NCBI RefSeq assembly: GCF_000384215.1
Contig: NZ_KB913032.1
Location: 5,571,602-5,635,601, forward strand
Origin: Amycolatopsis alba DSM 44262
Lineage (GTDB): Bacteria > Actinomycetota > Actinomycetes > Mycobacteriales > Pseudonocardiaceae
Direction: 5' to 3'
DNA: 64,000 bases
Both the position numbers and the translations under genes were made by a program. Every line of letters begins with the position of its first letter. Position 1 is the stretch's first letter. The notes under the pieces were generated by a model, which saw only the letters and a list, made by a program, of their open reading frames with translations, did not search any database and was not told where the DNA came from. Positions 42,096-44,974 of the stretch are shown piece after piece.

Positions 42096-42203
42096 CGTAA
42101 CTCGCGTGTTTGAACCCGTAACTCGCGTGCTTGAAGGCGGAACTCACGTGCTGAATCGTGTTACGGCTCTGATCACGCGAGTTACGGCTCTGATCACGTG
42201 AGT
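42096..42203. repeat. Family B repeat cluster in convergent gap
   Basis: Two near-identical direct units (CCCGTAACTCGCGTGTTTGA and CCCGTAACTCGCGTGCTTGA) and GGCGGAACTCACGTGCT face two inverted units (CTGATCACGCGAGTTACGG, CTGATCACGTGAGTTCC). The right edge enters the ABC-F gene: its last four codons and TGA (TELT-stop) are part of a repeat unit. Confidence 0.8.
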
Positions 42204-43768
42204 TCCGTGTTCAGCCACCTCGTGATGCCGATGTCGGCGAGGAACGGCCGGTCGTGGCTCGCCACGATCAGCGTGCCCCGGTAGGCCAGCAACGCCTCGG
42301 TGAGCCGGCGGACACTCGCCAGGTCGAGATTGTTCGTCGGCTCGTCGAGCAGCAGCAGTCTCGGCGTCGGTTCGGTCAGCAGCAGCGTCGCCAGTGTCGC
42401 GCGGAACCGTTCCCCGCCGGACAGCGACGCGACCTCGCGGTCGGCCGTCGTGCCCCGGAACAGGAACCGCGCCAGCCGCGCGCGGATCTCGTTGTCCGTG
42501 AGCGACGGCGCGACCAGCCGCACGTTGTCCACAATGGACAGCGTGTCGTCGAGGATGTCGAGCCGCTGGGGGAGCAGCCTGGCGGGCACGAACAGCCCCA
42601 CTTCGCCCGACTTCGGCGGGAGCTCGCCGGTGATCGTGCGGAGCAGGGTGGTCTTCCCCGACCCGTTCGGGCCGGTGAGCGCGATCCGCTCGGGGCCCAT
42701 GACGTGCAGGTTCACCGCCGGGCCGAATCGGGGCACGGCGTCGATCCGGAGCACGTCCGTCCCTCGCGGGACCGTGGTCTCCGGCAGTTCGACGCGGATC
42801 TCGGCGTCCTCGCGCACCAGGTCCTCGGCGGCCTTCAGCGCTTCGACGGCGCCCTCCAGCCTGTCGGTGTGCAGGTTCCGGTGCTTGCCCGCGGCGATCT
42901 GCGCGTCCTCCTGGCGTTTGCGCATCCGCACCTTGGGCTCGCGCTTCTGGTCCCACATCTTCTGGCCGTAGCGGGCGCGCCGGGCGAGTTTGATCCCGGC
43001 CTCGACCAGCTCCCGCTTCTGCCGCTTGACGTCGGATTCCGCCGCGCGCAGATGCCGCCGCGCGGCTTCCTGGGCGACCTCGACGGCGTGTTCGTAGTCC
43101 GCGAGGTTGCCGCCGTACGTCGTCACCTCGCCGTCGCGGACCTCGTCGATCCGGTCGACGAGCTGAAGCAGTTCGCGATCGTGCGAGACGACCACGAGGA
43201 TCCCGCTCCAGGCCGCCACCTCGCGGTGCACGAGTTCGCGGGCCCGCAGGTCGAGGTTGTTCGTCGGCTCGTCGAGCAGCAGCGCGGCGGGCCGCCGCAG
43301 GAGCAGGGCGGCCAGCCCGAGCAGCGTGAGTTCGCCGCCGGACAGTTCGCCCGCCCGCTGATCCAGCCGGACGGCGGACAGGCCGAGCCTGTCGAGGATC
43401 GCGCGGGTGCGTTCCTCGACGTCCCAGTTGTCGCCGATGGCGGCGAAGTGCTCTTCGGTGGCAGCACCGCTCTCGACGGCCCTGATCGCCGCGCGGATCG
43501 CGGTGACGCCCAGCACGTCGTCGACGCGGCGTTCGGTGTCGAGGACGAGGTTCTGGGGCAGGTAGCCGAGTTCGCCGGGCGCGGTCACCGAGCCCGTGGT
43601 GGCCTTCAGGCGACCGGCCAGCAGCCTGAGCAGCGTGGACTTACCGGATCCGTTGGTGCCGACCAGGCCGGTTCGGCCCACCCCGATGGTGAGCGAGAGG
43701 CGCTCGAATACCGGAACGCCGTCCGGCCAGGTGAAGGTGACGTCGGAAAGCGTCAAGGAAGAAGACAT
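42194..43768 (-). CDS. ABC-F family ATP-binding protein (ribosome-associated, possible antibiotic resistance)
   Basis: This 524-residue protein has two ABC domains and no membrane segment. Domain 1 has Walker A GTNGSGKST, signature LSGGELTLLG and Walker B LLLDEPTNNLDL. Domain 2 has GPNGSGKTT, LSGGERFRATLATLL and LLLDEPTNNLD. A linker of about 80 charged residues between them (RRHLRAAESDVKRQKRELVEAG through RMRKRQEDAQIA) is the arm that enters the ribosome exit/peptidyl-transferase region in antibiotic-protecting ABC-F proteins. ATG 43768 follows GGGAG. An MFL leader and a stem sequestering this ribosome site lie directly upstream, which supports drug-inducible control. Which drug class is unknown. 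Confidence 0.9.
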   Translation of the reverse strand: MSSSLTLSDVTFTWPDGVPVFERLSLTIGVGRTGLVGTNGSGKSTLLRLLAGRLKATTGSVTAPGELGYLPQNLVLDTERRVDDVLGVTAIRAAIRAVESGAATEEHFAAIGDNWDVEERTRAILDRLGLSAVRLDQRAGELSGGELTLLGLAALLLRRPAALLLDEPTNNLDLRARELVHREVAAWSGILVVVSHDRELLQLVDRIDEVRDGEVTTYGGNLADYEHAVEVAQEAARRHLRAAESDVKRQKRELVEAGIKLARRARYGQKMWDQKREPKVRMRKRQEDAQIAAGKHRNLHTDRLEGAVEALKAAEDLVREDAEIRVELPETTVPRGTDVLRIDAVPRFGPAVNLHVMGPERIALTGPNGSGKTTLLRTITGELPPKSGEVGLFVPARLLPQRLDILDDTLSIVDNVRLVAPSLTDNEIRARLARFLFRGTTADREVASLSGGERFRATLATLLLTEPTPRLLLLDEPTNNLDLASVRRLTEALLAYRGTLIVASHDRPFLADIGITRWLNTELT

Positions 43769-43812
43769 GAGACTCCCTGCGAAGGAGGTGGATGAGGGCG
43801 CAGGTTCGTCTC
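43769..43812 (-). promoter_or_regulatory. Attenuator stem sequestering the ABC-F ribosome site
   Basis: In the leftward transcript, GAGAC (43812-43808) pairs with GTCTC (43773-43769), and CCTGCG (43804-43799) pairs with CGCAGG (43781-43776). The two helices are separated by 3-nt and 2-nt bulges and enclose an inner loop of 17 nt. The stem starts at the leader stop codon and ends on the base before the ABC-F ATG, burying the GGGAG ribosome site. A ribosome stalled on the leader could open it. Confidence 0.7.
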
Positions 43813-43822
43813 ACAAGAACAT
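43811..43822 (-). CDS. Three-codon leader peptide MFL (leaderless uORF)
   Basis: ATG-TTC-TTG-TGA at 43822-43811 lies 42 nt upstream of the ABC-F gene. A -10-like TAGGCT occupies 43834-43829, leaving six bases before the ATG, so transcription would start at the A and the leader would be translated leaderless. Very short leaders that stall drug-bound ribosomes are established for antibiotic-responsive ABC-F genes in other bacteria. Confidence 0.6.
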   Translation of the reverse strand: MFL

Positions 43823-43828
43823 CGGGCC

Positions 43829-43834
43829 AGCCTA
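43829..43834 (-). promoter_or_regulatory. -10 element for the ABC-F leader transcript
   Basis: TAGGCT on the minus strand is six bases ahead of the MFL ATG. No clear -35 is visible, as is common for actinobacterial leaderless promoters. Confidence 0.55.
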
Positions 43835-43885
43835 GCCCGCACGCGTCCGCGGTGCGACCGATTTAGCGGGGGCATACTGGCGGAC

Positions 43886-44974
43886 GTGACCGAACGCCCC
43901 CATGTCCTGCTGTCCGCCGCTGTCTCACTGGACGGCTACCTCGACGACGCGACCGACACCCGGCTAGTGCTGTCCAACGAGGACGACTGGGCCAGGGTGG
44001 ACGGGCTGCGCGCCGCGTCGGACGCGATCCTGGTCGGCGCGAACACGGTCCGCGCGGACGACCCCCGGTTGCTGGTCCGCTCGCCGGAGCTGGTCGCCGG
44101 GCGGGTCGCGGCGGGCCGTCCGGAGCAGCCGGTCAAGGTCACGCTCACCCGGAGCGGGTCGCTCGACCCGGCCGCGAAGTTCTTCACCGTCGGGGACGTG
44201 GAGAAGCTGGTCTACGCGCCGCCCGGCGTCGTCACCGGGGTGAAGGCGACCGTCGTCGAGCTGACGGATCTGCGCGGTCTGCTGGCCGACCTGCACGCGC
44301 GGGGCGTCCGGCGGCTGATGGTCGAAGGCGGCGGCGCGATCCACACACAGTTCCTCACCGAAGGGCTCGTCGACGAACTGCACCTGGCCGTCGCGCCGTT
44401 CTTCGTCGGTGATCCGCGCGCTCCGCGGTTCACCGGACCAGGCGCGTTCCCGCGAGGACTCACGCTCGTCGAAAACACCCGGCTGGGCGAAATCGCCGTG
44501 CTGGAATACCACGCGACGCCAGAACCGTCCGAAGTGGACATTCTGCGCCTGCGCGAGGCCATCGCGCTGGCCGAGAACTGCCCGCCGCGCACGTTCCGCG
44601 TCGGCGCTGTCATCACCGACGCCGACGGCGAAGTGATCTCCACCGGCTATTCGGGCGACGGCGATCCCGCCAACCACGCCGAAGAAGCCGCGCTCGCCAA
44701 ACTCGAACCCGGAGACCCGAGACTGGCGGAGGCGACGATGTACACGTCGCTGGAGCCGTGCAGCTCCCGGACATCACATCCGCGGAGCTGCACCCAGCTC
44801 ATCCTCGACGCCGGCCTCCCGCGCGTCGTGTTCGCCTGGCGCGAGCCGTCGGTGTTCGTCGACTGCGTCGGCGCCGAGACACTGGAGGCGGCCGGACGCC
44901 GGGTGATCGAGGTAGGGGCCCTCGCCGCCGACGTCCGCCGCGCGAACACTCATATCGCGGGTGTCCGCCCCTGA
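43886..44974 (+). CDS. RibD-like fusion: reductase (N) and deaminase (C), domain order reversed
   Basis: This 362-residue protein starts at GTG 43886. Residues about 1-210 are an RibD C-terminal/dihydrofolate-reductase-like domain: LSAAVSLDGYLDD, SDAILVGANTVRADDPRLLVR and RRLMVEGGGAIHTQFL. Residues about 215-345 are a cytidine/deoxycytidylate-deaminase-type zinc domain: NHAEEAALAKL (HAE motif) and YTSLEPCSSRTSHPRSC (PC...C). In canonical RibD the deaminase comes first, so the order here is swapped. Both active sites look intact. It could supply the two middle steps of riboflavin synthesis or act in a related pyrimidine/deazaflavin pathway. No other rib gene is nearby, so no symbol is given. 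Confidence 0.85.
   Translation: MTERPHVLLSAAVSLDGYLDDATDTRLVLSNEDDWARVDGLRAASDAILVGANTVRADDPRLLVRSPELVAGRVAAGRPEQPVKVTLTRSGSLDPAAKFFTVGDVEKLVYAPPGVVTGVKATVVELTDLRGLLADLHARGVRRLMVEGGGAIHTQFLTEGLVDELHLAVAPFFVGDPRAPRFTGPGAFPRGLTLVENTRLGEIAVLEYHATPEPSEVDILRLREAIALAENCPPRTFRVGAVITDADGEVISTGYSGDGDPANHAEEAALAKLEPGDPRLAEATMYTSLEPCSSRTSHPRSCTQLILDAGLPRVVFAWREPSVFVDCVGAETLEAAGRRVIEVGALAADVRRANTHIAGVRP

Follow-up and report, generated by a model that had tools for sequence, protein, structure and literature searches.

The attenuators known from ABC-F genes mostly stop transcription (PMC12421871, PMC10201436, PMC9226507). In S. coelicolor, the gene are5sc is preceded by are5scL1, a Shine-Dalgarno (SD)-led uORF that starts with TTG and encodes MLV, in a 232-nt 5'UTR with a predicted terminator and antiterminator, and tiaA of the same organism carries the nine-codon uORF tiaAL (MVGDDDISG) (PMC12421871). 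The three-codon uORFs 5' of the resistance ABC-F genes cplR (MRI), vmlR (MIN) and vmlR2 (MK[L/Q]) of Firmicutes are likewise SD-led and stand in long leaders with intrinsic terminators and with hairpins masking the ribosome site (PMC10201436, PMC9226507). The leader described here from Amycolatopsis alba DSM 44262 is probably a compact form of this class, the uORF attenuators of ABC-F genes: a short conserved uORF lies directly upstream of the ABC-F gene in 18 of 18 orthologs. It resembles are5sc in the three-codon uORF before a related ABC-F gene, but its uORF is predicted to lie at the 5' end, the start codon is RTG and the whole leader spans 54 nt. With cplR, vmlR and vmlR2 it shares the three-codon uORF and, by prediction, a masking hairpin, although the sequences are separate, and with tiaA a uORF on an ABC-F gene, although the proteins belong to different clades. 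Leaderless poly-cysteine short ORFs were reportedly described as attenuators in mycobacteria by Canestrari in 2020; here the likeness is a leaderless short ORF serving as an attenuator in an actinobacterium. Those ORFs, however, belong to biosynthetic operons and respond to the supply of cysteine (PMC13236596), whereas the ABC-F leader here would respond to drugs. No published case of a leaderless uORF on an ABC-F gene was found in the open-licence literature. Judging by sequence, four things appear to be new: a leaderless uORF, a leader of 54 nt, its combination with a WblC-type promoter and the step from an SD-led TTG uORF to a 5'-terminal RTG uORF.

The controlled gene (42194..43768, minus strand, ATG at 43768) encodes an ABC-F ATPase of 524 aa and lies in the window, by which we mean the whole 64-kb stretch of DNA that was analysed. 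The protein has two ABC_tran stretches, and its best NCBIfam match is NF000355 (ribosomal protection-like ABC-F; 324.6 bits, under the cut-off of 380). On the minus strand, the order 5' of the gene is CTAAAT-CGG-TCGCAC-N17-TAGGCT-GGCCCG-ATGTTCTTGTGA, followed by 42 nt to the ABC-F ATG. WblC promoters of S. coelicolor consist of a GAAAWY box, 3 bp, a TKGMNN element, a spacer of 16-19 bp and a -10 element, with the transcript start 7-8 bp on (PMC7157823). Here the WblC/WhiB7-type box CTAAAT (43861..43866, minus strand) agrees with GAAAWY at 4/6 positions, the -35 element TCGCAC (43852..43857, minus strand), 3 bp after the box, agrees with TKGMNN at 3/4, and the -10 element TAGGCT (43829..43834, minus strand) follows a 17-bp spacer and ends 6 nt (GGCCCG) before the uORF. 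The same pattern, scored against the S. coelicolor consensus (PMC7157823), was found in 18/18 ortholog leaders with TANNNT complete and at least 3/4 of the -35 element. The GAAAWY box is matched at 6/6 positions in nine orthologs, 5/6 in two and 4/6 in seven, the window being among the last, and for the 18 leaders at most 2/2000 shuffles were as good. A generic sigma-70 (E. coli-type) scan found no promoter at the leader. The genome also encodes a WhiB protein with an RPRGRPRKN tail, which we take to be WblC by its AT-hook. A WblC/WhiB7-type promoter appears, from its sequence, to precede the uORF, and binding and activation by WblC are predicted.

A terminator scan returned a terminator-like palindrome over the -10 element itself; we read it as a chance arrangement, though it would still end any transcript arriving from upstream. 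Three of the 18 orthologs (L020, L023 and L024) have an inverted repeat over the -35 element, CTAACGCAA-N6-TTGCGTTAG or near it, possibly the site of a second regulator. On the plus strand (43870-43888), a divergent RibD-like gene starts with GTG at 43886 and may be leaderless too, because CATACT stands 7 nt before its GTG.

The predicted uORF, ATG TTC TTG TGA (MFL; 43811..43822, minus strand), would begin at the predicted transcript start, 43822. The preliminary description had placed TAGGCT six bases before this frame, and all the letters it gave are present on the minus strand; its proposal that the frame is leaderless agrees with what the orthologs show. TANNNT is spaced from the uORF by 6 nt in 17/18 of them and by 7 nt in the remaining one, the start codon is ATG or GTG in all 18, and a loose SD-like motif precedes the uORF in three only, each time within GGTGG at the -10 element. 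In the 64-kb window the string TANNNT-N6-RTG-N6-TGA occurs once on both strands, at this leader, against 0.03 expected. TANNNT lies 6-7 nt before the uORF in 18/18 leaders of the window's clade vs 0/50 SD-led relatives (L079 was left out of this comparison and of that of the SD-like motif), and TTG, absent as a uORF start from the 18 orthologs, serves as such in 38/51 SD-led uORFs (RTG vs TTG, Fisher p 1.2e-8, uncorrected for kinship). In mycobacteria, ATG or GTG at +1 is needed for leaderless initiation (PMC4633059). With RTG, a -10 element at 6-8 nt and no consistent SD, the sequences of the clade have the marks of leaderless starts, the 5' end itself being predicted; the window's clade alone looks leaderless, and its leadered relatives SD-led. 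The possibility that the frame is an N-terminal extension of the ABC-F protein was rejected on account of the in-frame stop.

The three-codon uORF is itself a property of a wider family. Among 58 related ABC-F genes (54-69% identity), 51 carry a three-codon uORF (NTG-nnn-nnn-TGAG) led by an SD, where shuffles would give 0.2 under the loose SD test used, and the same pattern was found in 0/15 TiaA-like genes and 3/53 more distant ones. These relatives are not independent, many being from Streptomyces or near neighbours; L146, a duplicate of L063, was dropped from the count, and of L174-L193, which hold about 60 nt of coding sequence, four were counted as TiaA-like and the other 16 were excluded from the uORF counts. 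Streptomyces relatives at about 60% identity carry TTG-CTC-GTC-TGA, that is MLV, a peptide frequent among the 51. A protein tree of 47 rows unites the window's clade (100/100), sets beside it further Pseudonocardiaceae proteins whose SD-led uORFs encode MIF, MLL or MVR (100/100), and separates the TiaA-type group (100/100); it settles these groups, not the deeper forks, and the S. coelicolor proteins are outside the 47 rows. The window genome has a TiaA-type paralog as well (50% identity), whose uORF MAGEDDISG (L039, about 642-673) matches the published tiaAL.

A search of 80 Amycolatopsis genomes (60 + 20) with the ABC-F protein gave orthologs at an identity of at least 87% in 18, the window's own included, and all 18 keep the three-codon frame, the TGA stop, the -10 spacing and an unchanged stem. 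The peptide MFL, which had been expected to be conserved, is not: it occurs in 2/18 (ATG-FL), besides MIF in 11 (GTG-IF) and MIL in five (ATG-IL). In the clade, no change is seen in the 15 nt that follow the uORF stop or in the 23 nt next to the ABC-F ATG on its 5' side; the loop belonging to the long stem has five variable columns but an invariant ACCTCCTT. Over 19 rows, in which L062 duplicates L016, ungapped mean pairwise identity is 0.51 in the 16-nt promoter spacer and 0.30 in 30 nt lying farther upstream. A covariance model built from 16 leaders matches the same 18/80 genomes of the genus, once each and at the ABC-F gene; in 297 genomes of the family, under stricter filters, it gave 12 strong matches, all in the genus, the next best having an E value of 0.016, so that no spread beyond the ABC-F gene was found. 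Kept as it is by 18/18 close orthologs, the leader is more than a chance observation and is, by these comparative tests of sequence, real, conserved and functional.

The letters of the proposed 11-bp two-part stem, running from the uORF stop to the base before the ABC-F ATG, are all present and invariant in the 18 orthologs: GAGAC (43812-43808, beginning inside the stop codon) with GTCTC (43773-43769), and CCTGCG (43804-43799) with CGCAGG (43781-43776). Compensatory changes, which the preliminary description had predicted along with conservation of the stem, were sought in the alignment of the 18 orthologs and none was found, because every stem column is invariant; the conservation stood, the covariation did not. 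In the predicted fold of the RNA (all minus strand), the lower helix pairs UGAGAC (leader nt 10-15, 43808..43813), which overlaps the uORF stop, with GUCUCA (nt 50-55, 43768..43773), the last base of which is the A of the ABC-F ATG; the upper helix pairs CCUGCG (nt 19-24, 43799..43804) with CGCAGG (nt 42-47, 43776..43781). The first two bases of the start codon, A and U, are able to pair within the lower helix, which a G9-U56 pair may extend. The 60-nt leader is predicted to fold at -19.3 kcal/mol vs -12.4 +/- 2.6 for shuffles (z -2.67; 4/200 shuffles as good). As for the idea that the stem hides GGGAG, the SD of the ABC-F gene (nt 46-50, 43773..43777, minus strand), it holds in the predicted fold for G46, G47 and G50, which are paired, but not for G48 and A49, which lie in an internal loop.

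For 21 short leaders (the window's and 20 relatives') whole-leader folding energy gave p <= 0.05 in 15 (mean z -2.4), a duplex test of the stop-anchored pairing in six and the anchored pairs in the best fold in three, which supports the hairpin as a whole in the relatives and its exact anchor less so. When ribosome occupancy was modelled in 12 short-leader relatives, the opening cost was lower in five, unchanged in five and higher in two. A consensus fold of seven of the eight Nocardia-type short leaders (one near-duplicate left out) has 21 pairs, four with changes on both sides, and a small covariation term (-0.22). In the Nocardia-type leaders L087, L117, L166, L167, L170, L172 and L178, uORF codon 2 pairs with the ABC-F ribosome site, with one both-sides change.

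We propose that the leader is probably a minimal ribosome-mediated attenuator, mainly translational. The parts and their conservation are read from sequence, the promoter, leaderless start and folds are predictions, and stalling, drug class and, from folding, the switching are what we infer. The same idea had been put forward in the preliminary description for this ribosome-protection-like ABC-F gene, and it gains from the conservation in the clade and the known three-codon uORFs of the relatives. A WblC/WhiB7 activator would help RNA polymerase to start at or next to 43822, so that the uORF start codon forms the very 5' end of the message, and a ribosome would initiate there. In the absence of drug this ribosome would read the three codons and depart, and the leader would fold, its lower helix covering the ABC-F start codon. 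A drug of the peptidyl transferase centre (lincosamide, streptogramin A or pleuromutilin type) would hold the ribosome on the uORF start codon, where it would cover about leader nt 1-16, make the lower helix's 5' arm unavailable and free the ABC-F start codon together with GAG of its ribosome site. Macrolide sensing was rejected as the main use: the peptide has three codons, and erythromycin did not stall MLV (PMC12421871).

As far as the ABC-F start codon goes, folding calculations agree with such a switch. With nt 1-16 covered, the unpaired probability of the ABC-F start codon is predicted to rise from 0.26 to 0.93 in the 60-nt context, and is 0.77-0.78 in longer ones. The cost of opening the stretch from GAG to start codon +5 in the 18 orthologs falls from 9.9 (8.9-11.3) kcal/mol in free RNA to 1.9 (1.3-3.9); when the covered stretch extends to nt 19 or nt 22, it is 3.8 or 5.1 kcal/mol, respectively. 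In RNA contexts of 90-114 nt, even with the ribosome stalled, the SD remains largely in weak pairs with the first part of the coding sequence (unpaired 0.11). With nt 1-22 covered, the upper helix is lost too, and the invariant loop half CUCCUU (nt 36-41, 43782..43787, minus strand) is predicted to pair with AGGGAG in an alternative hairpin that hides the SD, a pairing which would explain why CUCCUU does not vary. A three-state, 5'-terminal drug sensor working through 70S leaderless initiation is a tentative elaboration that we hold to be possible and yet rather doubtful. Free RNA would be off, the long stem covering the ABC-F start; a codon-1 ribosome would turn it on by removing the lower helix and sparing the upper one, which keeps the anti-SD CUCCUU from the ribosome site; and a ribosome running to the stop would turn it off again by removing the upper helix as well, so that CUCCUU and AGGGAG pair. 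Stalling on codon 1 would then be the sole trigger of the switch, which would have evolved from the family's SD-led three-codon uORF by a shift of the promoter onto the uORF. When the full GGGAG is counted, the opening costs are 15.1 kcal/mol in free RNA and 8.3, 6.7 and 7.2 with nt 1-16, 1-19 and 1-22 covered, similar for any ribosome on the uORF; the occupancy model thus draws no sharp split between stalled and terminating ribosomes, and the three-state distinction hinges on which bases count as the ribosome site.

The mainly translational reading has to be weighed against one with the same uORF sensor, in which the hairpin chiefly ends transcription, or both ends it and masks the SD, and the stalled ribosome prevents its formation. 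The U-rich stretch UCUUCUUCCUU after the ABC-F start codon (43755..43765, minus strand) may be a terminator tail or a soft start region: the stem is followed by GUCUUCUUCCUU, with U at five of the first eight bases, but the U tail is interrupted, the loop has 17 nt and the stem is absent from the terminator scan, which takes loops of 3-8 only. The T count in gene nt 4-15 is 6.94 in the clade; comparison sets gave 3.46 (57 relatives), 3.36 (14 TiaA-like genes) and 2.10 (20 SD-led genes of the window, among which a single gene, perhaps this ABC-F gene itself, has 7); TCT makes up 36/52 Ser codons at codons 2-5 vs 4/340 elsewhere in the ABC-F gene. Synonymous conservation at codons 2-5 (0.86), however, is barely above that of the rest of the first 60 codons (0.69-0.90). 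This T-rich tract and TCT use, set against unremarkable synonymous conservation, make a terminator role possible. Among the known systems, control of are5sc is transcriptional (PMC12421871), and transcripts of cplR stop at the start codon (PMC10201436), but a leader of about 54 nt would probably leave a ribosome little time to load before the polymerase passes. We consider it unlikely that termination is the main or a joint function, and a purely translational read-out likelier, though not the sole option given the U-rich stretch that follows the stem.

It is improbable that WblC/WhiB7 simply activates a gene whose start region is conserved and structured and whose three-codon frame is translated but senses nothing. 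The promoter match is strong by itself and would already give drug induction; yet frame, stop and stem are kept in 18/18 orthologs where the promoter spacer is not, and a three-codon uORF is retained by 51/58 relatives whose promoters and stems are different. A chance arrangement without function is the least credible reading, hardly to be entertained: each single element is short and the fold z modest (-2.67), but the -10 element plus frame is expected 0.03 times per window, the arrangement is conserved in 18/18 and relatives have uORFs, and the sequence conservation already contradicts it.

If the mainly translational attenuator is true, a sensor of 12 nt and 42 nt of RNA would make it one of the smallest drug-responsive switches conceivable, and a 5'-terminal (leaderless) start could act as a drug sensor. 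Leaderless initiation, the WblC/WhiB7 resistance programme and ABC-F ribosome protection would be joined in one 100-bp stretch, and, because sister genes keep the SD-led form, the two would be a natural before-and-after pair for the passage from a leadered to a leaderless attenuator.

Seven of the 58 relatives (L030, L031, L032, L086, L147, L160 and L169) are without the strict uORF pattern. L031 and L160 have a three-codon frame that failed it. Palindromes between promoter and gene take the place of the uORF in L032 and L147, where they immediately precede the ABC-F start, and in L086 (CTTCTACA...TGTAGAAG in L032, AACGCAACTGTAGTTGCATT in L086); they look like repressor operators, and in these relatives the attenuator seems, from the sequence, to have been replaced by a DNA-binding regulator. 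L030 (G043), a 67% relative without a leader, stands directly behind a TiaA-type ABC-F gene with its own DDIS uORF, a position suggesting that two ABC-F genes may share one attenuator. In L169 (G427), the uORF is TTG CTC CTG ACG AGG TAG, with five codons instead of three.
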